A DNA stretch of 33,566 bases from a virus, in the IMG/VR virus record IMGVR_UViG_3300047478_000081, positions 1 through 33,566 of that record, one strand, 5' to 3'. Numbering within the stretch: position 1 is the first letter of the stretch; each line of letters starts with the position of its first letter. The notes under the pieces were generated by a model. That model did not search any database, was not told the DNA's origin, and saw nothing but the letters and a program-made list of their open reading frames with translations. The translations under genes and the position numbers were made by a program. Positions 6,008 through 31,109 of the stretch are shown piece by piece.

Positions 6008-6043
6008 ATGATCAATATAATTTATTCATTACTTAATTATTAG
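6008..6043 (+). pseudogene. Eleven-codon stub: displaced 5' end of the helicase gene
   Basis: ATG 6008 has AGGA five bases upstream and encodes MINIIYSLLNY before TAG. The helicase at 6506 begins MVNIIYSLLSR: seven of the first nine residues after Met are identical, plus one Ile/Val change, yet nearly every codon differs (for example Ser is TCA here and AGC there). The simplest reading is that this is the original helicase start with its ribosome binding site, cut off when the HNH gene inserted. The stub stop overlaps the AGGA used by the HNH gene, so its translation may feed the HNH start. Confidence 0.6.
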
Positions 6044-6051
6044 GATAACTT

Positions 6052-6504
6052 ATGACTATCTGGCAGGATAACAACAAAGAGCACTTAAAGGAGTATAGAA
6101 AACAATATTATATTCAAAATAAAGAAACCATACTTAAAAAAGCAAAAGAAAAGGGACTTACAAAATTAGCGAAACTAAATAAAGGTATAAAAGCTGAAAA
6201 GAATTTTGAACGTATTTTATTTTATTCTAGTATTCAACATGCTAGAAAACTTGGCATAGAACACACAATTACGCTATCGGATATTATAATACCAACACAT
6301 TGTTCATATCTAAATATTGAACTAACAAAAACAAGAAATAATGGAGTAGTTTGGTCTAATGCCTCTATAGATAGAATAGATTCTACAAAAGGCTATATCC
6401 CTGGAAACATTCAAATTATTTCAAGAAAAGCAAACATAATGAAACAAAATGCAACACAGCAAGAATTACTTATATTTGCTAAAAATATTCTTAACCTAGA
6501 ATAA
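6052..6504 (+). CDS. HNH-type homing endonuclease between primase and helicase
   Basis: A 150-aa basic protein. The N-terminus (KEYRKQYYIQNKETILKKA) is a Lys-rich helix typical of DNA-binding tails of such enzymes. The catalytic part has PTHCSYLNIEL and then ASIDRIDSTKGYIPGNIQI followed by SRKANIMK, characteristic of a phage HNH endonuclease subfamily. These enzymes cut DNA of phages lacking the gene and spread by repair. The A+T-rich composition and codon use differ from the flanks. AGGA at 6042-6045 gives a six-base spacing to ATG 6052. Its stop lies one base before the helicase ATG, and the helicase has no good SD of its own, so helicase synthesis may depend on translation of this gene. 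Confidence 0.85.
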   Translation: MTIWQDNNKEHLKEYRKQYYIQNKETILKKAKEKGLTKLAKLNKGIKAEKNFERILFYSSIQHARKLGIEHTITLSDIIIPTHCSYLNIELTKTRNNGVVWSNASIDRIDSTKGYIPGNIQIISRKANIMKQNATQQELLIFAKNILNLE

Positions 6505-6505
6505 A

Positions 6506-7720
6506 ATGGTTAACATCATATATAGCCTGTTATCTAGAGAAATATATAGTAAATATAAAGATAGTTTATATAATATAATTAAAAAAGATAATAAAGAACT
6601 ATATTTACTATATAAATATATTACTGAACTTCACGATAAGTATTCTCGTGATATTACCTTTGAGGAATTTAGTCTATACACACTCTCTCGTGTACCTGAA
6701 AAAGATCGGGAAGTCTTCTCTGACTTGTTGCACAAAATCCAACAAGACGGCCCATCAGATATTGTACAAGATATTTTTGTAGAAATGCATAATAAACACG
6801 TTGCCTACAATCTTGCACTAAAAGCTCTAGAAGCGTCTGAGGGCCGTTTTTCTTTTGAGGAGCTACGTGGGTATACCCAAGAGCATTTAAATGCAGCCAC
6901 GCCCCTCGTAGGGCCCTCTATGGAGCCTGTAACGCATGATCTAGATGCACTTTTGAACGGAACCATCAAAACACAGGGGTTACGATGGAGATTAACCGCA
7001 ATGAACCAGATGCTTGGTTCGCTTAGAAAGGGTAACTTTGGATTCATATTCGCAAGACCAGAAACAGGGAAAACAACCTTCCTTGCATCAGAAATCTCCC
7101 ACTTCGCTCAACAAACAAAACGACCAATACTATGGTTCAACAATGAAGAAGATGGTGCCGCTGTTGAACTCCGAGTTTACCAAGCTACTCTTGGATGTAC
7201 ACTTACAGAACTTAGAGCTTTTCCAGAAGAATCTAATGCAAAGTTTATTGAACTCGGCGGGACTAACATCAAACTATTTGATTCAGCATCCATCCACCGA
7301 CGACAAGTTGAGGAACTTTGTGCGATCTACGACCCTGCCCTTATTGTCTTTGATCAACTTGATAAAGTCAAAGGATTCGTTGGAGACCGGGAAGATCTCA
7401 GACTTGGAGGAATTTATGTATGGGCTAGGGAACTTGCAAAACAGTATTGCCCTGTTATTGCCGTATCTCAAGCAGATGTGTCTGGAGAAGGAAAAAAGTG
7501 GCTAAACATGGAGAATGTAGCTAATGCCAAGACTGCAAAGCAAGCGGAAGCTGACTGGATTCTAGGTATTGGTTGCACTTTTCAGGATTCTGAACAGTAT
7601 GATAGGTTCTTACACCTGTCAAAGAATAAACTAATTGGGGATACAGATACCATCCCAGAATTGCGACACGGAAAAATGACTGTACGAATTGTGCCTGAGT
7701 TGGCAAGATATGAGGATTAA
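6506..7720 (+). CDS. Replicative DNA helicase (DnaB/T7 gp4 C-terminal family)
   Basis: A 404-aa protein. The N-terminal ~150 residues are helical, matching the linker/N-terminal region of DnaB-type helicases. The RecA-fold core starts near 165. Walker A is ARPETGKT (183-190; Ala replaces the first Gly), the Walker B strand is LIVFDQLD, and a later QAD/KTAKQAEADWIL segment matches the conserved glutamine and arginine-finger region. It should form a hexamer at the phage fork, working with the separate primase and the split polymerase. The first ten codons duplicate the stub at 6008-6043. ATG 6506 follows the HNH stop by one base and lacks an SD site. The first ~40 codons are strongly A+T-rich, like the HNH gene, and composition returns to normal near 6650. 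Confidence 0.9.
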   Translation: MVNIIYSLLSREIYSKYKDSLYNIIKKDNKELYLLYKYITELHDKYSRDITFEEFSLYTLSRVPEKDREVFSDLLHKIQQDGPSDIVQDIFVEMHNKHVAYNLALKALEASEGRFSFEELRGYTQEHLNAATPLVGPSMEPVTHDLDALLNGTIKTQGLRWRLTAMNQMLGSLRKGNFGFIFARPETGKTTFLASEISHFAQQTKRPILWFNNEEDGAAVELRVYQATLGCTLTELRAFPEESNAKFIELGGTNIKLFDSASIHRRQVEELCAIYDPALIVFDQLDKVKGFVGDREDLRLGGIYVWARELAKQYCPVIAVSQADVSGEGKKWLNMENVANAKTAKQAEADWILGIGCTFQDSEQYDRFLHLSKNKLIGDTDTIPELRHGKMTVRIVPELARYED

Positions 7721-8035
7721 ATGAAACAAAACACACAAGGTAGGAAGGCAGCAGGTGATATTAGATATACACACATGCTGACTCTTGCAAAAGAATTACG
7801 AAACAGTCCCTTAAATAAAGGTCAAAAAGATTTAATTGCTGCTTTTCTTGCACGATACTTTAAAAAACGAGTACTTAACTTTGATCTAGATAATTTTATG
7901 GCCGTATGTTTGGGTCTTTCGGAGGGTAAATATGCTGCACTTGTACACGATTCCCTTATCAATGGATGTCTATGCCAAGAACGAGAACGATGCGATATTC
8001 CAGTTGCAGAAGTTCTTGAGAACAGCAAGGATTGA
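7721..8035 (+). CDS. Hypothetical protein between helicase and polymerase
   Basis: A 104-aa protein starting directly after the helicase TAA, with a GAGG about six bases upstream. It is basic and helical (TLAKELRNSPLNKGQKDLIA then FLARYFKKR), with three Cys near the C-terminus. It might be a small helical DNA- or protein-binding factor of the replisome, but I do not recognise it. Its stop overlaps the region upstream of the polymerase start, and the AAGGA for the polymerase lies inside its last codons. Confidence 0.68.
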   Translation: MKQNTQGRKAAGDIRYTHMLTLAKELRNSPLNKGQKDLIAAFLARYFKKRVLNFDLDNFMAVCLGLSEGKYAALVHDSLINGCLCQERERCDIPVAEVLENSKD

Positions 8036-8037
8036 AT

Positions 8038-9228
8038 ATGGACTTGATGAAGTCATCACTCGTCACGACGTTGACGAAGAACTACTCGAATCCCGTCGTA
8101 ATGGATGTCGAAACATCAATTTATTTGAAGGGACACCCGTTTAGTACACGCAATACTCTTGAGATGGCTGTTGTTACCACACTGGATAACAAAAGTCAAG
8201 TATTTTTACCACAAACATTTACACAATTAGCACGAACATTGGAGAAATCTGACCTATGGATTACATTTAATGGCAAATTTGACATACACTGGATTCGTCG
8301 GGAGTTCGGATTGGTTCCCAAGTCCGTGTGGGACTGCCAGCTTGGAGAATTTTTACTCAGTAACCAGACGTGGAGATATCCCTCGCTTGATGAGTCCTGT
8401 CATAAACGCGGTTTACCAAGAAAAATTGATATTGTCAAGCAAGAATACTGGGATAAAGGAATTGACACCAAGGATATACCGTTTCAGACCCTAAAAGAGT
8501 ATGTAATTCAAGATGGTGAAAGTACTTTAGCCTTATTCGCTGACCAAGTTAAGGACTTTGAAGGAAAACATGCCTCAAAATACAAGCTTTTTAGGGTACA
8601 GTGTAACGATTTGCTTGTGTTACAAGAGATGGAATACAACGGTATCTTGTACGATGTAGAGGGATCACTGGCGGAAGCTGATAAACTAACACAAGAAGTA
8701 GTAGCTATTGATAGCAAGATGACCCAAATAGGCAAGCTGTCTTTCCCATTTAACTTTGATTCTCCCCAACAAATATCAAAACTATTGTATGGTGGTATTG
8801 TTAAGGAGGAATTCTCCGCCCCCATCGGTGTATTTAAAACCGGTCTCCGCAAGGGTGAAGTAAAGATGAAGAAGTTTGAACGAGAGCACGTCTTAGAACG
8901 CCTTGTAGAGCCGCTGGCTGGCACGGAGATGGCCGCTGAAGGGATATGGTCCATCAATGAAGATACCCTCGGCAAACTCGCTGCACGTGGCCCTGCTAAG
9001 GCACTCATTAAACTATACCAAGAAAGGGTAAAGCTACAGAAACTAAACTCAACTTACCTAACCGGTCTACCAAAGAGAATTAAAGAGATGGATTGGGATG
9101 ATAACATTATTCACTCCAATCTAAACCAATGTGTTGTTGTATCTGGTCGCTTGGCTAGTAACAAACCAAACGTACAGAACCAACCAGCACAAGCTAAACA
9201 ATTCTGTATAAGCAGATTTAAAACCTAA
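8038..9228 (+). CDS. Family A DNA polymerase, N-terminal fragment (3'-5' exonuclease, thumb)
   Basis: A 396-aa protein. ATG 8038 is chosen over the TTG at 8032 because AAGGA lies six bases before it. The proofreading exonuclease is complete: D23/E25 (MDVETS), the Exo II strand FNGKFDIHW and Exo III YVIQDGESTLALF. The thumb follows, and the protein ends just after the conserved SGRLASNKPNVQNQP segment and QFCISRF, right before motif A. In intact family members such as T7 gp5 (about 700 aa) the chain continues; here it stops at TAA 9226-9228, and the palm/fingers are a separate gene. The two products presumably assemble into one enzyme. Confidence 0.9.
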   Translation: MDLMKSSLVTTLTKNYSNPVVMDVETSIYLKGHPFSTRNTLEMAVVTTLDNKSQVFLPQTFTQLARTLEKSDLWITFNGKFDIHWIRREFGLVPKSVWDCQLGEFLLSNQTWRYPSLDESCHKRGLPRKIDIVKQEYWDKGIDTKDIPFQTLKEYVIQDGESTLALFADQVKDFEGKHASKYKLFRVQCNDLLVLQEMEYNGILYDVEGSLAEADKLTQEVVAIDSKMTQIGKLSFPFNFDSPQQISKLLYGGIVKEEFSAPIGVFKTGLRKGEVKMKKFEREHVLERLVEPLAGTEMAAEGIWSINEDTLGKLAARGPAKALIKLYQERVKLQKLNSTYLTGLPKRIKEMDWDDNIIHSNLNQCVVVSGRLASNKPNVQNQPAQAKQFCISRFKT

Positions 9229-9274
9229 AAAACTGAAAAATATGCAAAAAAAATTCCGGCTTAAGGAGAGCTAA
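9229..9274 (+). other. 46-base spacer splitting the DNA polymerase gene
   Basis: An A-rich stretch without a reading frame of note, ending with AAGGAG (9264-9269) five bases before ATG 9275. The downstream part is in a different frame, and TAA directly precedes its ATG in that frame, so simple readthrough cannot join the halves. It may be all that is left of a lost mobile element or a result of gene fission. It is too short to be a self-splicing intron. Confidence 0.6.
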
Positions 9275-9991
9275 ATGATAGTGCAGGTAGATGCTAAGAG
9301 CCTGGAATGGTGTACATACTTATTCCTCTCACAAGATCCTGTAGGTGTTGAAGAATGGTATGGTGTAGTTAATGATCCAAGCAAGAATGATATTCATCGT
9401 GCTAATGAGACAGCCTTCAAGCTACCGTCACGACTAGTAGCTAAGGTGTTTCTCTTTCGTTGGATCTATCGCGGTTCTGCCTTTGCCTATAGCCGTGATC
9501 CAGATTTCATGGGTGTCTCACGCAAGGTTGACTTCTGGCAAGATGTTATTGATAGGTACTATAGTAAGTACAAAGGATTACATAAGACTCACTTGAATTA
9601 TATTGAAACTGTTAAGAAGACAGGTCAATTAGTTTCCCCACTCGGTAGGGTATATGACTTTGAACCACAAAAGAAAAGAGGTGAGCTAGTCTGGAATGAA
9701 TCAGACATTTGTAACTATATCAACCAAGGATTAGGTGCAGATGTTATGTCAGTTGCACGCATTATTACCAAACAAAAGTTTGATAAATATAAACTACGAT
9801 CTTTGCTTGTTAATACAGTACATGATTCTATAGTAGCGGATTGTCCTGAGAAGGAGGTAGCAAATGTAGAAGAGATTTTCCTTGATGTTTTTAAGGAATT
9901 ACCAAAGCGTGTGTCACAAGCATACGATATTAACTGGAACTTGCCCATGCTGGGAGAGGTTCTGGTAGGTCCAAACATGGACATTCACTAA
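9275..9991 (+). CDS. Family A DNA polymerase, C-terminal fragment (palm and fingers)
   Basis: A 238-aa protein with a strong AAGGAG ribosome binding site. It begins in the motif A strand: IVQVDAKSLEW, with D6 the first catalytic aspartate. Motif B (O-helix) is intact: R53, K57, F61, Y65 and G67 in SRLVAKVFLFRWIYRGSAF, matching the Arg-x3-Lys-x3-Phe-x3-Tyr pattern. F61 is the position at which Phe or Tyr sets dideoxynucleotide discrimination in this family; Phe is seen here. Motif C is VNTVHDSIV with H183/D184. All catalytic residues of the polymerase are therefore present across the two genes, and the split seems functional rather than decay. Neither part should be active alone: exonuclease upstream, both palm aspartates here. 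Confidence 0.9.
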   Translation: MIVQVDAKSLEWCTYLFLSQDPVGVEEWYGVVNDPSKNDIHRANETAFKLPSRLVAKVFLFRWIYRGSAFAYSRDPDFMGVSRKVDFWQDVIDRYYSKYKGLHKTHLNYIETVKKTGQLVSPLGRVYDFEPQKKRGELVWNESDICNYINQGLGADVMSVARIITKQKFDKYKLRSLLVNTVHDSIVADCPEKEVANVEEIFLDVFKELPKRVSQAYDINWNLPMLGEVLVGPNMDIH

Positions 9992-10013
9992 GCTCGATAT
10001 AAGGAGATTACTA

Positions 10014-10556
10014 ATGAGCGCAATTCAAATTAAAGTTATTTCTGTAGAAGTATCCACACAAAAAACCCAGAAGGGTAGCTATGATATTGCAGAGGTAACA
10101 TATAAGAACCTCACCTTCCAAGATAAGGTAGAAGCAAAGAAGGTTGTTTCATTCAACCATAAGGAAGTCTTTAATACATTGAAACATGCCGCGCAAGGGG
10201 CCGTATTCACCGTACAGCGCGTCAAGAATGATGCTGGATACTGGGATTGGGTTAGCCTCGGTGATGATGAACCAGCGGGTACAGCTACGAGTACAGCGAG
10301 TGGAGGTAAAACTATGGCATCACCTAAGTCTACATATGAAACTCCAGAGGAGCGTGCAAAAAAGCAAGTGTATATCGTGCGTCAGTCAGCAATCAACGCT
10401 GCTATCGCTACACTAAAGACAGATAAAAAGAATCCAACACCAGATGAAGTGCTAGAACTAGCTAGTCACTATGAAGGATACGTCTTTGGTATTGAACCCG
10501 CATCTGGTGTTAAGGCAGCCATGCCTGAACTACCTGATGACGACGTGCCTTACTAA
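10014..10556 (+). CDS. Single-stranded DNA-binding protein-like
   Basis: A 180-aa protein with AAGGAGA eight bases before its ATG. The N-terminal ~85 residues are beta-rich and fit an OB fold (VEVSTQKTQKGSYDIAEVTY and a later strand ending YWDWVSL). A Gly/Ala/Ser/Thr linker follows, then a helical region. The protein ends ELPDDDVPY, close to the acidic DDDIPF tip that cellular SSB proteins use to recruit partners. It lies between the polymerase and the 5' exonuclease, as expected for a fork protein. Assignment rests on context, predicted fold and tip; I see no strict family motif. Confidence 0.65.
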   Translation: MSAIQIKVISVEVSTQKTQKGSYDIAEVTYKNLTFQDKVEAKKVVSFNHKEVFNTLKHAAQGAVFTVQRVKNDAGYWDWVSLGDDEPAGTATSTASGGKTMASPKSTYETPEERAKKQVYIVRQSAINAAIATLKTDKKNPTPDEVLELASHYEGYVFGIEPASGVKAAMPELPDDDVPY

Positions 10557-10562
10557 AAATAA

Positions 10563-10589
10563 TGCCTATGCCCCCTTGGGGGGCTGGCA
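10563..10589 (+). other. G+C-rich hairpin between SSB-like and exonuclease genes
   Basis: GCCCCC, a two- to three-base loop and GGGGGC form a strong stem (10570-10584), extended by TGCC (10563) pairing with GGCA (10586). No T-run follows, so it is not a standard rho-independent terminator. It lies about 12 bases before the exonuclease start and just before its AGGA, where it could limit read-through, protect the upstream mRNA or influence initiation. Confidence 0.5.
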
Positions 10590-10600
10590 GTTAGGACTAT

Positions 10601-11347
10601 ATGATATGTTTAATTGATGGTGACTTAGTAGCATACCGCTGTGCTGCTACGTGTAAGGAAGATGATCCAGTAGATGTATCTCTTTATCGTGTAGATAAAT
10701 TGATACGTGAGATCATCGAGGCGGCTGACTGTGAGGAGTATCAAGTTTGGTTGACAGGAAGTAACAACTTCCGTAAAGAAATTAATCCAAACTATAAAGC
10801 CAATCGTAAAGATATGGTGCCTCCTGTTTATCTACAAGACTCACGCGAGTTCCTTGTAACTGAACATGGAGCGAAACTTGCTCACAATATGGAAGCAGAT
10901 GACATGCTTGGTATCAACCAAACGGATGGTACCATCATCGCTTCTCTTGACAAAGATCTGTTAATGATTCCAGGTAAACATTTTAACTGGATTAAACAAA
11001 TCTTTGGTGACTATACAGTAGTCACAGAAGAGATGGGATGGAAGCACTTCTGGAAACAAATGTTGATTGGTGATACGTCTGACAACATCAAGGGCGTAGC
11101 CGGGCTTGGGCCTGTCAAGGCCGGGCGGCTTATCGATCCACTGGAAACCAATGAAGAGTGTATGGAAGCAGTGCTTAGCAAGTATGATGATCACGACCGC
11201 TTCTTGATTAACGCAAATTGTTTATGGATTATGAGGAGTATGGATAGCATATGGCACAAGGATCTGGGCTTGACTTTACCAAACGAATTACAACAAGAGC
11301 AGGATCGCCTGTCGAAATCTATTATGTCCGTGAGGGAGTCTATATAA
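10601..11347 (+). CDS. 5'-3' exonuclease (FEN/T7 gp6-like)
   Basis: A 248-aa protein. The family metal site is visible in order: D6/D8 (LIDGDLVAY), EADDMLG, the ASLDKDLLM strand and IGDTSDNIKGVAGLGPVKA, which joins the last metal ligands to the helix-hairpin-helix that grips DNA. A PNYKANR segment matches the substrate-threading arch. It removes RNA primers and, as in T7, may degrade host DNA. Its 3' end overlaps the next gene by 97 bases in another frame, so the last ~30 residues are under double constraint. AGGA lies four bases before ATG 10601. Confidence 0.87.
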   Translation: MICLIDGDLVAYRCAATCKEDDPVDVSLYRVDKLIREIIEAADCEEYQVWLTGSNNFRKEINPNYKANRKDMVPPVYLQDSREFLVTEHGAKLAHNMEADDMLGINQTDGTIIASLDKDLLMIPGKHFNWIKQIFGDYTVVTEEMGWKHFWKQMLIGDTSDNIKGVAGLGPVKAGRLIDPLETNEECMEAVLSKYDDHDRFLINANCLWIMRSMDSIWHKDLGLTLPNELQQEQDRLSKSIMSVRESI

Positions 11348-11478
11348 ACGGTGCATACTATGAACAAGACGACGATGTTTGGTGGCCTGTACAATGGGAC
11401 TGGGAAGGCAATTATGCAAGTAAAAAATCAGCATTGGATTTAATTAATGACAAACCAACGAAGAAGGTCCAAGCTTGA
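11251..11478 (+). CDS. Small conserved phage protein, overlapping the exonuclease gene
   Basis: A 75-aa protein. It reads like a small single-domain phage family built as two beta hairpins around a tag 'TRAGSPVEIYY', an internal 'ING', 'WDWEGNYAS' and an ending 'ALDLIND'. That pattern recurs in many phages without known function, and it starts near the predicted N-terminus, which supports ATG 11251 despite the long overlap with the exonuclease. GAGGAG is about 12 bases upstream. Its last codons overlap the endonuclease start. Confidence 0.6.
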   Translation: MAQGSGLDFTKRITTRAGSPVEIYYVREGVYINGAYYEQDDDVWWPVQWDWEGNYASKKSALDLINDKPTKKVQA

Positions 11479-11827
11479 AGAACGCTTTGAAACAATCTTG
11501 CAAGAGTTTGGAGTAATCTATGAGTATGAAGTTACAAAAATTCCTTATACAATACCAGAATCCTACCATGTTTATACTGTCGATTGGACTGTACTAAATG
11601 GTAAGCTCATTGAAACGAAAGGGTACCTCTCCGATCACGCTGAGCGCAGAAAGTATGTGCTCCTCAAAGAACAGCATCCTGAACTCGATCTCCGATTTGT
11701 ATTTGACAATCCAAATAAACTCTGCGGAGGAACCAAAATGTCCCACGCTAAATGGGCAGACAAGTACGGATTCAAGTGGTGCTCCATCAAAGACACTGAA
11801 CAAATCTTAAATTGGATTAAAGAATGA
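11447..11827 (+). CDS. Endonuclease I, Holliday junction resolvase (T7 gp3-like)
   Basis: A 126-aa protein, close to the 149-aa T7 enzyme and collinear with it. The catalytic set can be placed: E11 (SKLEERFE), D46 (YTVDWTV), E56 and K58 (LIETKG). Other T7-like blocks are EYEVTKIPYTIP, then LKEQHPELDLRFVF and the ending LNWIKE. It cuts branched DNA, resolving replication and recombination intermediates and helping break down host DNA. The start overlaps the preceding gene by 32 bases, and its TGA overlaps the next ATG. Confidence 0.9.
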   Translation: MTNQRRRSKLEERFETILQEFGVIYEYEVTKIPYTIPESYHVYTVDWTVLNGKLIETKGYLSDHAERRKYVLLKEQHPELDLRFVFDNPNKLCGGTKMSHAKWADKYGFKWCSIKDTEQILNWIKE

Positions 11828-16022: not shown

Positions 16023-16033
16023 GTTAGACAAAG

Positions 16034-16907: not shown

Positions 16908-16908
16908 C

Positions 16909-19900
16909 TTATCGTTCCCTATTCTGTATGTATGGTCCAGCGTTATCACGCATGAATCTACTTTGTTGTTGTGGATTACTGTTACCCTCTTTATCCGCAT
17001 ACATACGCCATAGTGCTGGAACATTCTCTTCAGTACTTTGTTTCTCAATAAGAGCTTTAAGCTGGTTACTATCACCCTTATAGTACTTATTCATTAGGAT
17101 GTCTATAATTTGCTTACTCTTCTCGGTATAACCTTGAGAAGCATATTGAGCGAACTTAGTTTCAAGTTCTTTTTGAGACTTGCTCATGTCCTTAGCATGT
17201 TTAATATGTGCTGCGTCCTTAGCTGCTAGTAAAGAACGTGATCCAACAAATGGTGCTAACAACTCAGGAGTCTTGCGTTCCACTAGAGCACCACCCTTAG
17301 CTCCCATTGGTACCATCCTTGTATCCTTGTTACGGAAGTACTCAACAGTACCATATACAGGCCCTTTAGGTAATGCTTGTTTCAGTGCCCTGTCTACATC
17401 AGCTTTTGGTGTATCTACTATAGCACTCTTAGCTAATGTTGTAGCACCGGACAGAGCTTGTGCACCCCAGTTAAGATGTGGGAAGAACGACATCATACCT
17501 TGTTCTTCAACATCAGTTAGCTTCTTAAACAAAGAAGTGTACCGCATTGATGCATCTATATCTACACCAGTTGCACCAGAGAAGGCTCCGTGAGATATCC
17601 ACGATGGGGTATAGTCAATCATTAACTTAGTAACACTAGGTAAACTATCAGCACGGATCAAACCTGCGGCTATTGCAGCTTGTCTGATTAGCTCATACTC
17701 TGCAAGAATGGGTAGTGATATTGCCCCACCCATAATCATCATAATACCTGACGTTAAGATTAATGGTGCTGCGGTTCTAAAGTTAGGCTTACTGGCAAAC
17801 TCTTTAATATCAACCAGCATATTACCAAGCTGGCCATGAGCGAAGGTCATTAGTGGTGAGGCTTGCTCACCAAAGATGCCCAACTCACGGTAGATTGCTG
17901 GCAGGTTCTTGGAACCATAGGCAATCATATTATCAGTAGCGTCCTGTGCTGACTTCTTAATCAACTCATCACCAGTTAGACCAGAGCGTTTGTGTAGATT
18001 ATAAAAGTATGTGAAGCTAGCGAACCGTGAGAACTTATCACCAGCAGCAGAGATAGTTCTACCCAAACCATGATCAATTGTTTTGTTTAATATGGAATCT
18101 GGGTTGTGCCCAATAGTAATACTATTAAACTCATTGTTCATTTGTGGGTGTAGTGTGTTATGCTCAGCACTAACCTTCTGCAAAGCTTCTGCAAAGTCAG
18201 GATCTTCTGCCCACCGTTGACCAGCTAGTTTATAAACCGTTTCACCAAAAGCTGCGAGAGCTTGCCGTACAGACTCCTGATTCTTGAAGCTACTTCTGGT
18301 AGCCATGAGTGCTTGCATTGGCTGTGCTAGCCAAATGGCCGGTTTCATTGTGATATTAGCAACATAAAATACAGAGCTAAACATACCAAGTAAGCGGTCT
18401 ATAGCATGCTTATCACGCATGTGATAGCCAACAACATTCTTATCCCAAGCATTGGTGGTTAGTTCACGCAGACCTGTAGATAGATCATGTAGATGTTCTC
18501 TAACGGTAGTAGCATGGGCTTTATCCCCACCCTCAGCACTGCGTACTCGATCTGTTTTGTATGGCCTGTCGATCTGGCTACGTGTATAGAAGTCTACCAA
18601 CTCACGAGTAGTGCCTTTCATAGCATCGTCGTTGTCAATATGAAACTCAATCAACTTCTTCTGAATTTCTCTTGAAGCAATGTTATCTACGTACTGGTTG
18701 AACGCTCTAGGCATAGCTTCACGAAGAAGTTTACCACGCTGCGCTTTAGTTAAGCCAGCTTGGTCACCCACAAAACCAGGCAACTGCATAGACCGGTTAG
18801 TATGACCACCAATAGATGTGTTATTTCGTTCTAATTCTAGTAGTTGTTTGTTTAGATGATCACGCAACCCACCAGGTTCTACATTACTTAGACTCTCAAT
18901 AAAGTCAATAAGGTTCTGTGTCATGTCCCGTTCTTTAGCCTTTGGTACAGCCTTAATACGTGGATCACTGTCAGTATAAACCTTAGCCCAGTAGTTAGCC
19001 TCACCAGCAGTCAAGAAAGATTGCTTGCGTAGTGGCACACCTTGGATAGATATCTCTACATCATAGTCACCAACACGAGATGTAAGCATATAACCAATAC
19101 GCTTTTTCAAATCTTGATCAAGATCAGTACGACCATACATACGAACAGCTTCTTCGTACAAGGTGTCTACGTTCTTGGCAAGAGCCTTGGCAAGAGCAGC
19201 TTGATCTGGTGTCCAGCCTGCTTGGTGTGCAGCGATAGTCTGTTCATGGTCAATACCACGCTCATAACCATCAATCATCTTGTCATGTACATCAGCTATA
19301 TCCGCATCTTTAGCAATACGATGGATGGTTGGTACAAGAGCCGCTTCTTCCTTTGGGCCCTTTAGATTGTAAAAGAAACCCTTTGTTTGTGGTGCTCTAA
19401 CACCACCTAGTAGCTTTGTCTTTAGCGATTCAGCTTTCCACTGAACATCTTTGATTGTCTTTGACCACTGATTAAAGTGTTTGTCATTACGCATTACCTG
19501 TGGTAGTTGTGCAGTAAACAAATGTGAGAATACTTTCAAAGAACCATTACGAATACTCTGTAACATGGCCTCTGGCGTATTCTTAATTCTGAACTTTACT
19601 TGTGGATCAATACCCATTAACCCCTTAGGTGGTTGTGCTGTTGATAAGTCAATTAATGATTGACCATACTCAAGCACATCATCTAGAGCAGTGCGGGTAT
19701 TAGATGACTCCCCAAAGAAATCTTTGAGTGTATCTTTAAGTGTAGACCAGAATGATTTACCATCTGATTTAATTTGACGCAGAGCATTCTGTACTTTGTT
19801 ATCAGTTAAACCATAAGCTAGAAACTCTTGCTCATTACTCAAGACAATCTTTGCATTATCAGCACCAAGGATTTGATCAAACTGTTCACGAATAGCGCGA

Positions 19901-22098
19901 TTGGTTCTAACTTTATTGTGTAGACTAAACAGCTTGCGTGTTGCAGCTAACGCACGTGGATCTAGATGATGACCCATACCAGAACGCACGAAACCAACGG
20001 CTCGGTTGACAAGCGCGTGTGTAGTCTCATGTAAGATAGCTGACGGTGTGATCTCTCCTTGTGACTTGAAGATAATCTCACCAGTATGGTTGTTATACTG
20101 TGCACCATAGACTGCACTAGGATCTACACGATGCTTGATACTCGCTACATGTGGGTTGTTAAGGATGGTCTTGGCTAAAGCACCATAGAACCTACCGTAA
20201 TCACCCTTACCAAGTGTCTTACCGTAGTTACCAATAAAAGACAAGGCATTAACAATACCACCATCGTTCAATGCACCGCGAGCACCAGCAATAAATGGTG
20301 TCATAGCAACATAGTCATTGAACAGCATGGCACTTAGCTTGTTACCTTCCGCTTTGTCAACATCACTACGCATTTTGCGTAGATCAATCTCACTGCGGAA
20401 GTCCTCTGCCTCATCATTCAGAAGGTTTCTATAGCGTTGTACACTAATAACCTTATCTAATGAACCACCATTCTCAGCTAGGCTAGCAAGTGTGGCATCT
20501 ACCTTATCTACCTTGGCTTGTTTTGTGGCTAGTGCTTGAGCTAGTGCAGCATCGGACATAGCTTGAATATCAATCTCACTATGCTTCTGATGTACCTCAA
20601 TCTTAGTACGTCCAGGTACAAACTCAGGACGATTAACACTGTTCTCTATCTCAGTAATCTTTTGTTTTGTTTTTTCAACAAGACCACTATAGGTACTTGG
20701 ATCGCTTTGTGCTTTCCATTCCCACCACTGTAATTGCTTAAGTAAGTCAGAGCGATACTTGTTAGCCTTCTCTGATAGCCCTGGGAGCAACGTAGAGGGG
20801 CCTACATTGGGTTTGTTTATTGGCTGTGATACATCCACTCCACCCTCAGCAGCGCGGTCAGCAGCGGCCTGCTTTTGGAACATGGCAGACATGTCTTGAT
20901 TTGGAGTCTCCTCTTCACCAAAAGCTTTTGCAGCGTTCCTCTCAGCTTCATCAGCAAGAGAGTCAAAGCGAGATTCAATAACAGCAAGACGTGCCTTGTC
21001 CTCCACAGTAAGAGCAGCACCTTTAGCTTTAATGGTGTTGTGTTCTGTCTGTAGAGCAGACATCTCTTGTTCAGCAGCCCTCACTCTCTCCTGTGCAGCT
21101 TGCCTTTCAAGGGCAGCAGCCGCATCTAGATCTTGTGTGGTCTTACCAACAGAGATTTCAGTAGCACCGGTGAGCTTCTCTAGTTGGATTAGATCACCAG
21201 TGGTTTTACGCAGTTCTTCGCGTAGTTGTAGTGAGTAGTCAGAGTTTTGATCTGACTGGCGTTCTAGTTGATCACGAATAGCGCGTTCTGTAGATCGTAG
21301 TGAGTTAACTCTACGTGTCATATCAGCATCTACATCTAGTCCGGGTGTCTTCTCTATCTTTGGTGGTGCGTTGTATGGATTGTCTTGTACCTTAGCACCA
21401 ATATGGCCTATAGCTGCACCTGGTAGAGCACCAGTGATACCAGATACGGCATACTTCTCCATGTCTGGTTTATAAAAAGATTGTGCCTGCTCTGGTAATA
21501 GGTTTGGTGCAATCAAATCTTGTCCAACGGTAGCTGCTAGATTACCTCCGGCACCATAGGTAGCGCCTTTAAGTATACCACTACCGCCTGGAATGAGCTT
21601 AGCGGCTGTCATGTCTAAGGCTCCCTCGGCAATAGCTTGAGGTACGGCTTGTGTCATCGCATCAGCACCAGACTGTACGTTACGACCACCCTGACTAAGC
21701 GCAGACATACCAGACAAGACACCCATAGCTGGGGCAGGGCCAACAAAGGGCATAGCGGCTACGGCAGGAGCTAGTTGTGTTAGTCCTGATACAACCTTAC
21801 CACTAAATCCTTGTTCTTTCTTTGCTTGCTCTTCCTGCCATGCTTTGTTACGTGCTTCCATATCCGCATAGATACTATCAGGATCACCACCTAGATGTGT
21901 TGCAGCGGCACCGGCAAGCAGGTCTAGAGCATCTTTACTCATGTGTCCAAGACTCTTAAAACCAATACCAACATCTTCACCAATAGTTGTTTTAGTTTCT
22001 AGCAAACCAAGAGGATCAGAATCATCACCGAAAAGACCCAAAGGGTCTTGACTATTTGGTTGTGCATCAAACAACCCTAGTGGATCTTTTTCAGTCAT
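16909..22098 (-). CDS. Giant virion/ejection protein with HETTH zincin motif
   Basis: A 1729-aa protein. The N-terminus repeats DPLGL three times (residues ~5-33), followed by an Ala/Gly-rich amphipathic region (about 80-240) and Glu/Arg/Gln-rich coiled coils (about 260-420). HETTH (near 690, in SAILHETTHALVNRA) is a zincin-type motif. A long helical region follows, then a hydrophobic segment (about 1440-1470, LTSGIMMIMGGAISLPILA) that could insert in a membrane. Size, context after tail genes and layout fit an internal protein ejected into the cell ahead of DNA, like T7 gp16 or the large 'polyvalent' phage proteins. ATGA overlaps the upstream stop. Lytic transglycosylase motifs were not found. 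Confidence 0.75.
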   Translation of the reverse strand: MTEKDPLGLFDAQPNSQDPLGLFGDDSDPLGLLETKTTIGEDVGIGFKSLGHMSKDALDLLAGAAATHLGGDPDSIYADMEARNKAWQEEQAKKEQGFSGKVVSGLTQLAPAVAAMPFVGPAPAMGVLSGMSALSQGGRNVQSGADAMTQAVPQAIAEGALDMTAAKLIPGGSGILKGATYGAGGNLAATVGQDLIAPNLLPEQAQSFYKPDMEKYAVSGITGALPGAAIGHIGAKVQDNPYNAPPKIEKTPGLDVDADMTRRVNSLRSTERAIRDQLERQSDQNSDYSLQLREELRKTTGDLIQLEKLTGATEISVGKTTQDLDAAAALERQAAQERVRAAEQEMSALQTEHNTIKAKGAALTVEDKARLAVIESRFDSLADEAERNAAKAFGEEETPNQDMSAMFQKQAAADRAAEGGVDVSQPINKPNVGPSTLLPGLSEKANKYRSDLLKQLQWWEWKAQSDPSTYSGLVEKTKQKITEIENSVNRPEFVPGRTKIEVHQKHSEIDIQAMSDAALAQALATKQAKVDKVDATLASLAENGGSLDKVISVQRYRNLLNDEAEDFRSEIDLRKMRSDVDKAEGNKLSAMLFNDYVAMTPFIAGARGALNDGGIVNALSFIGNYGKTLGKGDYGRFYGALAKTILNNPHVASIKHRVDPSAVYGAQYNNHTGEIIFKSQGEITPSAILHETTHALVNRAVGFVRSGMGHHLDPRALAATRKLFSLHNKVRTNRAIREQFDQILGADNAKIVLSNEQEFLAYGLTDNKVQNALRQIKSDGKSFWSTLKDTLKDFFGESSNTRTALDDVLEYGQSLIDLSTAQPPKGLMGIDPQVKFRIKNTPEAMLQSIRNGSLKVFSHLFTAQLPQVMRNDKHFNQWSKTIKDVQWKAESLKTKLLGGVRAPQTKGFFYNLKGPKEEAALVPTIHRIAKDADIADVHDKMIDGYERGIDHEQTIAAHQAGWTPDQAALAKALAKNVDTLYEEAVRMYGRTDLDQDLKKRIGYMLTSRVGDYDVEISIQGVPLRKQSFLTAGEANYWAKVYTDSDPRIKAVPKAKERDMTQNLIDFIESLSNVEPGGLRDHLNKQLLELERNNTSIGGHTNRSMQLPGFVGDQAGLTKAQRGKLLREAMPRAFNQYVDNIASREIQKKLIEFHIDNDDAMKGTTRELVDFYTRSQIDRPYKTDRVRSAEGGDKAHATTVREHLHDLSTGLRELTTNAWDKNVVGYHMRDKHAIDRLLGMFSSVFYVANITMKPAIWLAQPMQALMATRSSFKNQESVRQALAAFGETVYKLAGQRWAEDPDFAEALQKVSAEHNTLHPQMNNEFNSITIGHNPDSILNKTIDHGLGRTISAAGDKFSRFASFTYFYNLHKRSGLTGDELIKKSAQDATDNMIAYGSKNLPAIYRELGIFGEQASPLMTFAHGQLGNMLVDIKEFASKPNFRTAAPLILTSGIMMIMGGAISLPILAEYELIRQAAIAAGLIRADSLPSVTKLMIDYTPSWISHGAFSGATGVDIDASMRYTSLFKKLTDVEEQGMMSFFPHLNWGAQALSGATTLAKSAIVDTPKADVDRALKQALPKGPVYGTVEYFRNKDTRMVPMGAKGGALVERKTPELLAPFVGSRSLLAAKDAAHIKHAKDMSKSQKELETKFAQYASQGYTEKSKQIIDILMNKYYKGDSNQLKALIEKQSTEENVPALWRMYADKEGNSNPQQQSRFMRDNAGPYIQNRER

Positions 22099-23036: not shown

Positions 23037-23041
23037 TGTAG

Positions 23042-24061: not shown

Positions 24062-24062
24062 A

Positions 24063-26227: not shown

Positions 26228-27825
26228 TATCGTTTCCTTGTGTTATTACTATAAATGTTCCCAAGAGTGCTTGTTGTGGCCTGAGCCATGTTGTTAGCAA
26301 GTTTCCTATCATCTGGAGATGTATTAGAGCCTGTAAACAATGTGCCTAAGGTTGGCGTAGCTGCACCTAGAGCAGCTTTAACCGCTAGGTCGGTACCGTT
26401 GATACCACCACCATTAAACAAACCGCTTAGAGCCCCGCCAGTGAGTCCCTTAACACCACCACCAAGCATCTTGGCAGCCATTGGCCCTAAGGCATCTGAT
26501 GTACCACTCGTTGTTAGTCCGCCTAAGTAACTACCAAGGCCACCGGCCACACCAGAAACAAGACCGCCCTTAAGTGCATCACCAAAAGATTGTCCATTCA
26601 ACATGCCACCAGCAGTACCTACACCAGTACCGATAATACCTGCTCCGACGTTCTTTGCAAGATCACCAGTAAGCTCTAAAGCTCCACCAACATCACCGCC
26701 ATATTTTGCACCAAGCTGTGATCCAGCATAACTAAGAGCACCTTGTCCAAGAGCCTTGCCCCAATCCCCACCATTTAAGCCTGACCGGGCCGTTGACATT
26801 ACCGCACCGGCAATAGGATTAACAGCAGAGAAGATTGCATTGAGTACTGTTGGGAAATATGTTCCCATAAAGCCAGGCTTCTCCCATTTACGGAAATCAT
26901 AACCAGCCGCTTTGGAACCTTCTGGACGATAATCAAGTACACCATATGGATCACCACCCTTATGGGTCCATCGCCCACTATTCTCTGGGCTTATCCAAGA
27001 TCTATATTCATCTCGCCATTCTTTTTCTAGTTGTTGATGTGTTTTTTGACCTAGATTAAGAACCTGATTATCACCACCTCCAGGCTGTTGTTGGTTATTA
27101 TAATATGTTGGATCTATTCCACCACCATCAGTACCATAATGAGACTGTGCTTCTTCGGCCATACGTCTATCTAAATCATCAGCATAGTCCAGTTCCATGT
27201 TAGTCAATCTAGGGCCCGCACCAGCTTGCCAAATCCAGTCACCATTATCTTGGCCTGGAACGAATCCCATACTGTAATACTCACCACCTGGTAATTTAGA
27301 AAAACTGTTAGCTAGTGATTGTTGTTTTTGTTGTTCTAAATATTTTGGATAATTTGCATTATAGTCATCCACATACTTACCTAGATCACGCTGATATTGG
27401 TTTGCTAGCTTGTGACCAAACACAGATGGTAGCTTCTGTCCTACCTGATCAAAGTTCTTTTGTAGTGAACTATCCGCTAGATCATATCCCGCTTGTTTAG
27501 TTAAACTGAGAGCACCCTCTGATGTATATGGATTAGTTGCACCATAATAACCTTCTCTATCTCTACCACCTTCTTGATAAGTTCCTAGGAGTGGTTTTAG
27601 AAAGGTATGGGTATCTTGATCCATGCTGGGCATATTTGTTGGATCAACTTCATTGAACCCAGCAAAGCGTTGACCAGAGACACCACGCTTAGCCCAATCA
27701 GTTGAGCCAAGGTCTTGTGAGTTTTCCCTACGCAGGTTGCGTAGACGCTCTTGTTGACTCTGCCCTAAGGTATTCTGTAGTGTCTGATTATATTGTGATT
27801 GGAGATCCATTCCAGGAATTGCCAT
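26227..27825 (-). CDS. Gly-rich putative internal virion protein
   Basis: A 532-aa protein placed between the gp4-like and gp10-like genes. The N-terminal ~270 residues are polar, Gln/Asn/Tyr-rich with many Gly (including a GGGID and QQQPGGGDN stretch). The C-terminal ~200 are Gly/Ala-rich with repeated hydrophobic 'GGxLxGLxGG'-like turns (GVGTAGGMLNGQSFGDALKG), a pattern of membrane-active or ejected phage proteins. P22 has no gene of this kind at this point, so it is an insertion relative to that layout. It may be an ejection protein. Not recognised by family. Confidence 0.62.
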   Translation of the reverse strand: MAIPGMDLQSQYNQTLQNTLGQSQQERLRNLRRENSQDLGSTDWAKRGVSGQRFAGFNEVDPTNMPSMDQDTHTFLKPLLGTYQEGGRDREGYYGATNPYTSEGALSLTKQAGYDLADSSLQKNFDQVGQKLPSVFGHKLANQYQRDLGKYVDDYNANYPKYLEQQKQQSLANSFSKLPGGEYYSMGFVPGQDNGDWIWQAGAGPRLTNMELDYADDLDRRMAEEAQSHYGTDGGGIDPTYYNNQQQPGGGDNQVLNLGQKTHQQLEKEWRDEYRSWISPENSGRWTHKGGDPYGVLDYRPEGSKAAGYDFRKWEKPGFMGTYFPTVLNAIFSAVNPIAGAVMSTARSGLNGGDWGKALGQGALSYAGSQLGAKYGGDVGGALELTGDLAKNVGAGIIGTGVGTAGGMLNGQSFGDALKGGLVSGVAGGLGSYLGGLTTSGTSDALGPMAAKMLGGGVKGLTGGALSGLFNGGGINGTDLAVKAALGAATPTLGTLFTGSNTSPDDRKLANNMAQATTSTLGNIYSNNTRKR

Positions 27826-28542
27826 TTACCAACCCCGTCGATCCGCTTGAAAGTACATAGAACCCTCTTCCAAGCCAAAGTTTAGAGCGTCTTGCTTGAT
27901 GATTGATGCCTCTTGCCACAGAACCTTGCGGTCAGCGGCAGGTAGGCCATACTCAGGAGCTAGTCGTGTAGCTAGGCCGTAGGTCACAGCATCATACCAT
28001 TCTTGTGGAAAGTCTGGTGTATCTGTTGAAGTATCAAAGTCCTCGAAGGGGCGTTGATAAACAAAGTACAAAGTCTTGTTAGCTGCTTCTACACTGGTAG
28101 GTGTTGGGAAGACATGCATAACACCAGAGTCGCGGAGAGGCTCGTAGAAGATCTGTATTGGCATACCAGATGTAGTCTTGTTACCAAGAATGTTATACTC
28201 TTGTCTAGTCAAGATCCTCATGGGTACATCAATGTTATTGCTGTTATCATGCAACCAAGCTTGATAGATCTTTAGTGGCTTAGAGATATCTACAGTAAGA
28301 CCTGTGCCAACCGTATAGGAGTTTGTTGCATCTGTCAAGGACATGCCATACTGTTTCATGGCCCACAAAGGCATACCGTCAGCTTGCCATGCCTTTACCA
28401 AACCATTAAGAGCAATAGCCGCTTCTGTAATCTGTGTAGTACTGGGTGTTTGTCCTTGAGCTAACACACCTAATAGGCGCAAAGCTCGCTTGATAATATC
28501 ATCTCTAGATACAGAGAAGTCTGTTGAATTTGATGTGGTCAT
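27826..28542 (-). CDS. P22 gp4-like head-completion / tail adaptor protein
   Basis: A 238-aa protein. The N-terminus (DIIKRALRLLGVLAQGQTPS followed by ITEAAIALNGLVKAWQADG) is the helical bundle typical of phage adaptor proteins that dock on the portal. A beta region follows, then PDFPQEWYDAVTYGLATRLA, the conserved motif near the C-terminus of this family. It is longer than P22 gp4 (166 aa), with an inserted beta-hairpin region around 75-170. In P22 gp4 binds the portal after packaging and recruits gp10. The start overlaps the holin-like stop by ATGA. Confidence 0.78.
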   Translation of the reverse strand: MTTSNSTDFSVSRDDIIKRALRLLGVLAQGQTPSTTQITEAAIALNGLVKAWQADGMPLWAMKQYGMSLTDATNSYTVGTGLTVDISKPLKIYQAWLHDNSNNIDVPMRILTRQEYNILGNKTTSGMPIQIFYEPLRDSGVMHVFPTPTSVEAANKTLYFVYQRPFEDFDTSTDTPDFPQEWYDAVTYGLATRLAPEYGLPAADRKVLWQEASIIKQDALNFGLEEGSMYFQADRRGW

Positions 28543-28766
28543 GTTTTTATTCCTTTAACCAGAGCCATAAAAGCTGTCACTGCCATAGCAATACCACCAA
28601 ACCACTTGACCAAACTAACAATCCAATTGGCTGCCTTCCATGCTGAAACAAGATCGGAGACATCAATAGACAACCGATTAATTTCTGTTCGCATTTCTTT
28701 AATTGCATTATCCATATGAAGTAGTCGCTTCTCTTCGGAGACTAAGTGTTCTGTAAGTTGGTCCAT
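28539..28766 (-). CDS. Small tail-anchored membrane protein, holin-like
   Basis: A 75-aa protein with AGAGG five bases before its ATG. Residues 1-45 are a charged helix (EEKRLLHMDNAIKEMRTEIN), followed by one membrane segment (about 47-70, NWIVSLVKWFGGIAMAVTAF) and a basic end (KGIKT). This layout fits small one-span phage membrane proteins of the XhlA/holin type. No endolysin gene is next to it, so lysis function is tentative. It overlaps the upstream gene by 25 bases and the downstream gene by ATGA. Confidence 0.5.
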   Translation of the reverse strand: MDQLTEHLVSEEKRLLHMDNAIKEMRTEINRLSIDVSDLVSAWKAANWIVSLVKWFGGIAMAVTAFMALVKGIKT

Positions 28767-29206
28767 GTAAGCCTCTTTATCCTAGGAGAGAAATGAAACA
28801 TTGCTCTACCATTCTCAATATTATCAAGCATCCACCCAAAATTTAAATCTAAATAGAATGTCTTAAAGTAAAATTTTTTATGCCACTGCCAAGCACCTGG
28901 ATGCCCTTCTGGTAATGATAGCACCGTCCACTTAAACCCATATAGAGAGTTTCTATATAACCAAGCTACCATATTCCAGTAAGTACCTGATGGATGGTTA
29001 GCATGCCATTTAGCATCACCTAATAAACTATTATCTCTAGTATCAAACCAAGACAACCATGTAGGTAGTCTTGGACCAATACCAAAAACATTATTATTAT
29101 TTAAACCACCGTAACGCTCTTTAGCAAAAAGAGGTAGTACAGGTGTCACGATGTACGTGAGCACCTGCACAGGGAGATACGCTGCCAGTGTTAGGAGGTA
29201 GCGCAT
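28742..29206 (-). CDS. Conserved phage membrane-anchored protein
   Basis: A 154-aa protein. ATG 29206 overlaps the upstream TGA (TGATG); a GTG one codon earlier is less likely. One N-terminal membrane segment (about 3-27, LLTLAAYLPVQVLTYIVTP) is followed by a Trp/Tyr-rich domain with conserved-looking GIGPRLPTWLSWFDT, DNSLLGDAKW and WLYRNSLYGF. I recall this layout from many podo- and siphovirus genomes, placed near tail fibre and lysis genes, with unknown function. It may act at the inner membrane during lysis or superinfection control. Confidence 0.68.
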   Translation of the reverse strand: MRYLLTLAAYLPVQVLTYIVTPVLPLFAKERYGGLNNNNVFGIGPRLPTWLSWFDTRDNSLLGDAKWHANHPSGTYWNMVAWLYRNSLYGFKWTVLSLPEGHPGAWQWHKKFYFKTFYLDLNFGWMLDNIENGRAMFHFSPRIKRLTWTNLQNT

Positions 29207-29433
29207 CACACCAGCCGCACCTTGACTGTGCCTGTCGTATGGTACAGGCCACCTACAGCAACGCCACCAGCGGCGGCAGCCGAGTCATCTGCGTAACTGG
29301 TCAGGGGGAGCAGCGCGTATCCATTGATCCCCTTGATAGTCTTCGCCGTCTGGTCGATTTCCAGTGCATCTTCTGCTGCATTGCCGATAGTGACTTTAAG
29401 CCCATCGAGGGAGGCTGAGATTTTAGCGGTCAT
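29206..29433 (-). CDS. Small fibre-associated domain protein
   Basis: A 75-aa protein with GGAGG seven bases upstream, coupled by TAATG. The ending 'YADDSAAAAGGVAVGGLYHTTGTVKVRLV' region carries the AAAAGGVAVGGLY motif common at the C-terminus of phage fibre and baseplate-associated proteins. It stands as its own gene here. DNA is markedly richer in G+C than most of the operon, matching the 3' part of the adjacent fibre gene. Probably a virion decoration or fibre chaperone. Confidence 0.58.
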   Translation of the reverse strand: MTAKISASLDGLKVTIGNAAEDALEIDQTAKTIKGINGYALLPLTSYADDSAAAAGGVAVGGLYHTTGTVKVRLV

Positions 29434-30332
29434 TATGCGGCCTCCAGTAGTGCTGCACTAACCATTGCGTCAGACCAATTCAGGGTTCCTGCACCGCCAG
29501 CAGCATCGACAAGGAACTGCACATAATCAGTCGTTCCATTCATGTAGAAGATGCCAGAGATAGCGGGTTGTCCGTAGAGGGAAGTACTATACGGTGCGAC
29601 GTACTGCTGAACCTGATTCCCTGCGCCGCCAGCGTTCTTCCTGATTGTCACACCGAAGTAATTAGCAGCAACAGAGGTTTGACCATTGACCCTGAAGTTG
29701 AACTGATACCAACCTTCCACAGTGGGCAAGAACCTGTCGGTCGCAGGGTTCCATGCGTTACCAACATTGGTTTCTGCAACGATGTCGGTCAGACTAGTCA
29801 TAACGAACCCCGCGCTTGTCGGCCCCGCTTGCCTTCCTGTGAAAGCGATCTTCGTGTTCTGAGGGAATGCCACCTTCCCCGCAGCATCCACAGTCAGAAT
29901 ATCTTGTGTGGTTGCACCAGCATTACCCCTAGCTAACTTCATAGTACCATCAGCAGCCTCAGCCGTAATGGTAAAATTATTAGTAGCAGTACCAGAGTCA
30001 CCAAATTGACCAGCTTTGATTTTTGGTGCTGTTATAGTTTTATTTGTTAGTGTAGATACGGCACTGTCTTTAGTTGCATCACTTGTGTTATCTACATTAC
30101 CCAAACCAAGAGTAGTTCTTTGTGCTGCTGCATCAACATCATCTAATAAAGCTAGTCCGGCAGTAGTCGGATTAACAGCAGCATACTCTGTTAGATTTGC
30201 TGAGTATGGCTGAATAGACACACCAATATCAGTTGAATCTACTTTATCAGTGTTAAGGTTAATAAAGTTTGCATCTACCTCATTCCAAGATAGTGTAAAG
30301 CCTTTACCAGCTCGTGTTACAATTGTACTCAT
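29433..30332 (-). CDS. Tail fibre protein with C1q-like C-terminal domain
   Basis: A 299-aa protein. It begins MSTIVTRAGKG with a small anchor, then a fibre segment with 'GLGNVDNTSD' and 'TLTNKTITAP', the usual phage fibre shaft motifs. The C-terminal ~140 residues match the C1q/TNF-like knob pattern: NWNPATDRF-like turn, TVEGWYQFNFRVNG, VTIRKNAGG and a final strand before SAALLEAA. Such knobs bind host surface sugars or proteins. The base composition changes inside the gene: the 5' part (about 29,930-30,332) is A+T-rich, the 3' part (29,433 to about 29,900) G+C-rich, which fits a knob exchanged from another phage. Confidence 0.8.
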   Translation of the reverse strand: MSTIVTRAGKGFTLSWNEVDANFINLNTDKVDSTDIGVSIQPYSANLTEYAAVNPTTAGLALLDDVDAAAQRTTLGLGNVDNTSDATKDSAVSTLTNKTITAPKIKAGQFGDSGTATNNFTITAEAADGTMKLARGNAGATTQDILTVDAAGKVAFPQNTKIAFTGRQAGPTSAGFVMTSLTDIVAETNVGNAWNPATDRFLPTVEGWYQFNFRVNGQTSVAANYFGVTIRKNAGGAGNQVQQYVAPYSTSLYGQPAISGIFYMNGTTDYVQFLVDAAGGAGTLNWSDAMVSAALLEAA

Positions 30333-30616
30333 AGTAAATCATCTCCTGTTACATATCCACTTACTGAATATCCCGAATCCCAGTATAGGATATAATCAAC
30401 AGTTGTAAAAACATATGTTGGGATTGGTCTTGTGAATGGTACTGAGATCTTGTCCTGTCTAGCCCTCACAAAGTCCTGTTCGTGTCGCGGTTCCCAGTCA
30501 TCCAGACAGACACGGAAACCATCCCAACGCTGTCTGGACTCTGAGGCTTTTATCTTCCTAGAACATACATCGCATGTCACATTGAATTCGCCGGAAACGT
30601 AATAATTCTTAGACAT
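30329..30616 (-). CDS. Small zinc-ribbon phage protein near fibre genes
   Basis: A 95-aa protein. N-terminal YYVSGEFNVTCDVCSRKIKA has CxxC, and VCLDDWEPRHEQDF continues with a Cys and a conserved Arg/His stretch; the series RQRWDGFRVC is typical of a small protein family found next to tail fibre genes in many phages. The C-terminal ~30 residues (Tyr-rich, VSGYVTGDDLL) look like an add-on. It probably binds zinc. Its first 14 residues are repeated at the start of the HNH protein just upstream. It overlaps the HNH 3' end by eight bases; the GAGGA RBS lies in the HNH gene. Confidence 0.7.
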   Translation of the reverse strand: MSKNYYVSGEFNVTCDVCSRKIKASESRQRWDGFRVCLDDWEPRHEQDFVRARQDKISVPFTRPIPTYVFTTVDYILYWDSGYSVSGYVTGDDLL

Positions 30617-31109
30617 GGTATATGTTCCTCTTGCTTAAATTATGTTGTGCCGGAAGATACTGAAGATTATTTTCAACATGCAATCCTGAGACTAGTTTAC
30701 CACGTAAAGGTATAACATGATCTACATGGAAACCTATAGGACAACCTAAATACAAAGCTTTTATTTTAGGAAGGTCAGACCAACTTGGAGTACGTTTTGC
30801 TTTTTCTGCTCTATATGTGGCAGCACGAAAAGCATCATAAGGTAGATTATTTCTTCTCCATGTTCTGGTGCTTTGTCTAGACAGCTCTCGATTATTTGCT
30901 TTGTTTCGCCAGTTTTCCGTGTATTCTTTCTGTTTTTCTGGTTTCATATGTTTCTTATTTGCTTCTAATAAACAGGGTTTACAACGAGAAGCAACACCAC
31001 ATTTACCATCCACCTGTTTATAGAAGTTGTCTAAAGACTTTTCTTCTTTACAAACAGAACAGCACTTGGTAATATTCCAATCACCAGATACATAATGATT
31101 TTTGCTCAT
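30609..31109 (-). CDS. HNH endonuclease with N-terminus copied from the downstream gene
   Basis: A 166-aa protein. Residues 1-14 (MSKNHYVSGDWNIT) match the start of the downstream zinc-ribbon protein (MSKNYYVSGEFNVT). Then come a CxxC zinc finger (CSVC ... CKPC), a Lys/Arg-rich linker and an HNH core: GFHVDHVIPLRGKLVSGLHV followed by NNLQYLPAQHNLSKRN, the canonical HVDHxxPL...NLxxLP...N pattern. This is a free-standing homing-type endonuclease. It is A+T-rich relative to its neighbours. ATGA couples it to the repeat-protein gene, with AAGGTGAT eight bases upstream. It uses the virion operon's transcript. Confidence 0.87.
   Translation of the reverse strand: MSKNHYVSGDWNITKCCSVCKEEKSLDNFYKQVDGKCGVASRCKPCLLEANKKHMKPEKQKEYTENWRNKANNRELSRQSTRTWRRNNLPYDAFRAATYRAEKAKRTPSWSDLPKIKALYLGCPIGFHVDHVIPLRGKLVSGLHVENNLQYLPAQHNLSKRNIYHV

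Follow-up and report, generated by a model that had tools for sequence, protein, structure and literature searches.

Recoded 5′ rescue copies beside phage HNH endonuclease genes: candidate homing cassettes in the first codons of target genes

Two unrelated HNH endonuclease genes in a viral genome sequence (the window; the whole 33,566-nucleotide stretch analyzed) each lie directly upstream of a phage gene whose first codons occur twice, once at or before the start of the nuclease gene and once, respelled, at the restarted target gene. Comparison with other loci (L numbers) argues strongly that this architecture is real, repeated, and new as a 5′ variant and that it mirrors, at the opposite gene end, the logic of the mobile open reading frames (mORFs) of fungal mitochondria, which replace a 3′ end. 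Very probably, each such element is a free-standing HNH homing endonuclease cassette seated in the first codons of a gene and carrying a recoded 5′ rescue copy of it. The two window cases are read by analogy with loci L332, L054, and L094/L104.

Two HNH loci in the window

At the first locus (all features on the + strand), the nuclease gene HNH1 (P0001; 6052 to 6504) is followed by the restarted gene of a DnaB-like replicative helicase (6506 to 7720) and preceded by a leader (6008 to 6043; MINIIYSLLNY and a stop codon), which is read as the left-behind copy of the helicase 5′ end. AGGAA (5999 to 6003) is, from its sequence, the probable ribosome-binding site of the leader and formerly that of the helicase. 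The restart at 6506 reads MVNIIYSLLSRE, and its codons 1 to 10 (6506 to 6535) match the leader at 8 of 10 amino acids and 16 of 30 nucleotides, with six codons synonymously changed and a longest exact repeat of 5 nucleotides; the recoded block is at least this long (compare about 19 codons for L054 versus L060, below). HNH1 matched phrog_3322 (E value, 6.7e-27) and has the conserved residues D-R-I-D..GY..N, of which DR..GY..N aligned to PacI by profile alignment. PacI (3ldy) was also the top fold match of its AlphaFold2 model (mean pLDDT, 81; E value, 7e-3; probability, 1.0), and on this model HNH1 is a PacI-like HNH protein and predicted endonuclease. Contig IMGVR_UViG_3300043431_000047 carries the window's sequence too. 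The collections yielded no close relative of the window with an empty site, the nearest helicase being 58% identical in protein.

At the second locus (all features on the − strand), HNH2 (P0003; 30609 to 31109; phrog_1035) is a canonical HVDH HNH endonuclease (motif HVDH..N), read from 31109 to 30609 and starting MSKNHYVSGDWNIT (31068 to 31109), which is the 5′ end of the target gene fused to it. The target gene P0004, encoding a structural-region protein, restarts with MSKNYYVSGEFNVT (30329 to 30616), and the recoded copy of its codons 1 to 14 occupies 30575 to 30616. Two probable ribosome-binding sites were inferred from the sequence: AAGGTGA (31117 to 31123) for HNH2, formerly the target gene's, and GAGGAA (30625 to 30630), within the HNH2 3′ end, as the new site for P0004. 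Over 14 codons the two starts share 10 of 14 amino acids and 27 of 42 nucleotides, with seven synonymous codons and no exact repeat longer than 6 nucleotides. Among the relatives listed, the extra MSKNHYVSGDWNIT was present only in P0003; P0003 relatives with an N-terminal CxxC zinc ribbon begin at that ribbon, and P0004 relatives lacking any nuclease start MSKNYYVSGGFNVTCDVC and similar. The extension therefore belongs to the target gene and not to the nuclease family. A search of solved-structure sequences with P0003 gave no match.

Both window nucleases thus match phrog endonuclease families, site-specific activity being predicted; comparison of the two enzymes revealed no significant similarity. 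The initial annotation had described the duplicated start codons at both genes, copies agreeing in protein but not in DNA, enzymes differing in type, strand, and operon, a target gene kept intact, and a repeated architecture instead of coincidence. All of this held up: each target gene resumes from a start codon of its own and encodes a full N terminus, and the loci described below extend the pattern to several nuclease types at several genes.

Elsewhere on the − strand, P0005 (31106 to 32857) contains many imperfect repeats (GGSYTLTGASA..LSRNRKLTA) and had no family match, and a 1729-amino-acid open reading frame (16909 to 22098) probably encodes a large virion protein.

Occupied and empty alleles

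One set of comparisons came from the terminase large subunit gene, of which an empty site was seen in dozens of contigs. Locus L332, with an endonuclease-VII-type gene, has the order leader, nuclease, restarted terminase, and its leader is identical to the empty allele of those contigs over codons 1 to 15. The restarted terminase differs from the empty allele L440 at 21/54 nucleotides in codons 1 to 18 (11 synonymous and 2 nonsynonymous codons) versus 42/1200 in the later sequence (p = 2.5e-15). L344 belongs to another terminase lineage; its leader is of that lineage's native type, but its nuclease left end and block are nearly as in L332. Each leader thus matches its own lineage, and most of the block is common to both. 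Two other nuclease types target the same start. L485, with a canonical HNH gene, differs from L440 at 59/210 nucleotides versus 37/1044 (p = 3e-25; block of about 70 codons), and L456, with an HNH-AP2-like nuclease (class assigned by eye from sequence), has a recoded block without a clear leader. Terminase blocks thus ranged from about 18 to about 70 codons.

Three insert-free alleles (L439, L459, and L465), enriched by the search pattern WQQIVFSD, join native codons 1 to 13 to element-type codons 14 to 17. They are possible excision footprints or resistant alleles, of the form expected for insert loss through the 9-nucleotide repeat TGGCAACAA; alternatively, they may be of donor-type or partial-conversion origin. 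At L457, whose terminase start is also respelled, an unrelated gene lies directly upstream in place of the terminase small subunit gene.

Holin loci L094 and L104 share an HNH1-type nuclease and an identical restart, ATGTTCCCATTGACTGCAATTTTAGGTATTGGTTCTCAACTTATTGA, and differ in leaders and downstream flanks. The layout is also present at the same holin position in L191 and L352, whose nucleases have 69% and 49% identity to that of L104; it is therefore old and has been kept. The leader at the holin is the coding N terminus of the nuclease, as in HNH2, whereas in HNH1, L332, and L006 (below) it is a separate stop-ended peptide outside the nuclease.

Because L094/L104 and L332/L344 share nuclease and block and differ in leaders, the aligned alleles show that nuclease and recoded restart block move together and that codons 1 to n in the upstream leader are native to the recipient. 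By the same alignments, the gene beyond the block is the recipient's own sequence.

Helicase genes gave two further pairs of occupied and empty alleles. At L036 an endonuclease-VII-type gene begins with the helicase's own ATG-ATA-GAA and the restarted helicase with TTG-ATA-GAA; the near-identical L034, without the insert, represents the empty site. At L054, with an HNH1-type nuclease and a recoded block without a clear leader, helicase codons 1 to 19 differ from the empty L060 at 17/57 nucleotides and the next 60 codons at 7/180 (p = 3e-7). The captures at L036, L051, and L485 span 2 to 3 codons, too short for significance alone. At the metallophosphoesterase locus L269, the two starts read MRILVIPD-EKK and MRILVVPDCQ. 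In L006 (1040 to 1650), the leader MSTHCTHHTACPTCRRNGNDRG, ending in a stop codon, and a NUMOD4-like HNH gene (class assigned by eye) precede a primase starting MQHCVKHEQCPKCAELGNDK; this case surfaced blind among control pairs. The DNA polymerase gene downstream in L006 is overlapped at its start by a second HNH gene.

In all, at least six targets had a leader/restart pair or a recoded block (helicase, P0004, terminase, holin, metallophosphoesterase, and primase), with four or five nuclease types (PacI-like HNH, endonuclease-VII-like, canonical HVDH HNH, HNH-AP2-like, and NUMOD4-like HNH). A gene-end duplicate with diverged DNA and conserved protein was found in the window pairs, L332, L344, L094, L104, and L269, with exact repeats between the two copies of ≤9 nucleotides; one site was seen both occupied and empty for L332 (versus L440 and others), L036 (versus L034), and L054 (versus L060).

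Proposed mechanism

The cassette would consist of the nuclease gene and a recoded copy of the target 5′ end of about 10 to 70 codons. Cleavage of an empty allele would fall between codon n and the block end, a span running from the leader end at codon 16 to the block end at codon 18 in the terminase gene and from codon 13 to about codon 17 in the holin gene. In the homologous repair that would follow, the leader would serve as the left arm and the body of the gene as the right one. Recoding would remove the cut site, probably preventing renewed cutting, and also the direct repeat that would permit loss of the insert. The nuclease would be translated from the target gene's own start, as a fusion (HNH2), or, where a short leader peptide comes first, immediately after it (HNH1). 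The first insertion probably proceeded by one-sided, partly illegitimate repair, for which T4 offers a precedent (PMC2988022). Cleavage, resistance, and mobility of these enzymes we infer from their genes and alleles, and the recoded block, AT rich like the nuclease gene, may be a divergent donor's allele rather than the product of selected recoding.

This scheme departs from the initial annotation, which took the leader to be captured by the element; it is instead the 5′ end that the recipient already had, as seen in L332/L344 and L094/L104, where each lineage has its own. The further proposal that the element gains expression signals was borne out in part: the gene's own start or ribosome-binding site is used by the nuclease, in some cases only.

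That the elements form a distinct recurrent class of natural home-and-rescue elements is slightly more likely than not. Several unrelated HNH types would have converged on the first codons, where the native 5′ end supplies promoter, start, and left arm; the resistant recoded block would be too divergent for repeat-mediated loss, and excision would leave resistant footprints.

Alternative explanations and frequency

A possible but rather unlikely reading is ordinary intronless homing, with the nuclease lodged between genes, a divergent 5′ block that represents only the co-conversion tract of a distant donor, and a leader that is a role-less by-product of imprecise repair. For the free-standing enzymes of T4, both co-conversion and resistant target alleles derived from the donor are established, and repair that is one-sided and illegitimate has been described (PMC2988022); in addition, the AT-rich block codons resemble the nuclease gene, and most HNH neighbors have no leader. 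However, the leader occurs at the same position in independent elements and diverged lineages (holin L094/L104, L191, and L352; terminase L332 and L344), it forms the coding N terminus of the nuclease in the holin elements and HNH2, and the block ends are sharp.

The rescue cassette reading has also to be set against the similarity of neighboring genes in general. The initial annotation had proposed a scan of N-terminal matches as a means of separating nuclease genes from random neighboring pairs, and by itself it did not separate them: with redundancy removed, a score of ≥45 was reached by 3/249 nuclease pairs versus 6/889 control pairs (p = 0.31), because paralogous neighbors match too. The control matches were mostly such neighbors (among them L359 and L413), plus one new real case (L006). 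N-terminal matching alone is therefore no proof, and the claim rests on the empty-site comparisons. The same control neighbors with matching N termini lend something to the view that nuclease and neighbor share an N-terminal signal or zinc ribbon by function or paralogy, with no insertion, as do the CxxC motifs directly after the match in both P0003 and P0004. We consider this very improbable, since the N-terminal extension is missing from P0003 relatives, the leader of HNH1, L332, and L006 is a separate peptide, and insertion is seen directly at empty sites, which refutes paralogy for L332, L036, and L094/L104. Zinc-ribbon homology of P0003 and P0004 was likewise rejected, P0003 relatives being without the extension.

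That the peptide matches arose by chance and were chosen by eye is hardly credible: short matches are common (99% point of the permuted null, a score of 34; 99.9% point, 40.6; maximum, 53) and the neighbor-pair test was not significant, but the window pairs scored 64 (HNH2, on the exact contig) and 42 (HNH1; scores of ≥40 in about 0.15% of permuted pairs), and the empty-site p values for L332 and L485 refute it. Automated runs gave the HNH1 pair too low a score in its contig copy, because that contig ends inside the leader. In a permutation test of 82 and then 281 nuclease-downstream pairs, of which the loci were partly redundant and one was an artifact (L279, overlapping endonuclease open reading frames), 6 scores of ≥45 were observed versus 0.17 expected. 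Matches to DNKIEKMMQ (L386, L397, L365, L245, L268, and L421) were rejected as not N terminal. A self-splicing intron or intein was also rejected, because a start codon of the gene's own, followed by the full N terminus, lies after the nuclease stop codon or overlaps it.

Among HNH genes the leader/restart layout is a minority arrangement, and leader or capture was found in 0 of the 12 HNH genes examined in named phages.

Relation to known systems

No published phage 5′ version was found in a literature search limited to papers available without subscription. Fungal mitochondrial mORFs duplicate the C terminus of a gene (Allomyces atp6; Glomus atp6, atp9, cox2, and nad3), with copies agreeing 94 to 100% in protein versus 64 to 81% in DNA, and, like the phage elements, combine an endonuclease open reading frame with a foreign replacement of one gene end, the native end being left behind (PMC3630166). 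They replace the 3′ end, whereas the phage elements replace the 5′ end by a short block and have HNH enzymes, whose translation can begin at the target gene's start codon; the phage elements are accordingly not filed with the mORFs, which are defined by 3′ (C-terminal) replacement.

The T4-like enzymes SegF, SegG, and MobE are similar in being unspliced endonucleases beside a conserved gene, with a resistant donor allele, co-conversion, and nuclease genes that contain signals for the gene downstream (PMC2988022). Their location is intergenic and their cut sites are hundreds to thousands of base pairs distant, in contrast to the phage elements, which lie within the first codons and duplicate them (PMC2988022). 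HNH or other nuclease genes also occupy recurrent sites, often by essential genes, in Skunavirus and ICP1, for which 5′ duplication was not found in the searched portions of the two accounts (PMC12724721, PMC10448857). By carrying a respelled copy of the piece that it interrupts, a selfish nuclease without splicing could invade the interior of essential genes.

The ShiLan domain is a hidden HNH insertion in mycobacteriophage methylases whose first 11 residues are similar to the 11 that follow the insertion; the similarity is stronger at the protein than at the DNA level, and the authors left it unexplained (PMC11855218). In ShiLan gp65 (L521, 6500 to 7150), SYEPVCVAVKP stands before and AFEPIVVARKP after the insertion, 202 codons apart. 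The case differs in being internal, with the host reading frame open and no start codon involved; the repeat fits an internal version of the leader/restart pair, which would offer a simple reading of it.

Synthetic home-and-rescue drives likewise pair a nuclease targeting an essential gene with a recoded rescue, and uncut resistant alleles arise (PMC7968924). Those drives are engineered and CRISPR based, while the phage elements are natural and rescue the 5′ end only; the latter would be natural examples of the design, including apparent resistant footprint alleles.

For annotation, a short leader peptide or an odd N terminus of a phage HNH protein can be the beginning of the gene that follows, and a gene may have first codons with a history unlike that of the remainder. 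As a separate observation on gene starts, about a dozen helicase relatives (L004, L005, L007, L019, L044, L075, L185, and others) lack ATG, GTG, and TTG alike at the conserved start position. In several of them, ATA or ATT follows a Shine-Dalgarno-like sequence in place of the ATG found in others, a pattern that suggests non-AUG initiation.
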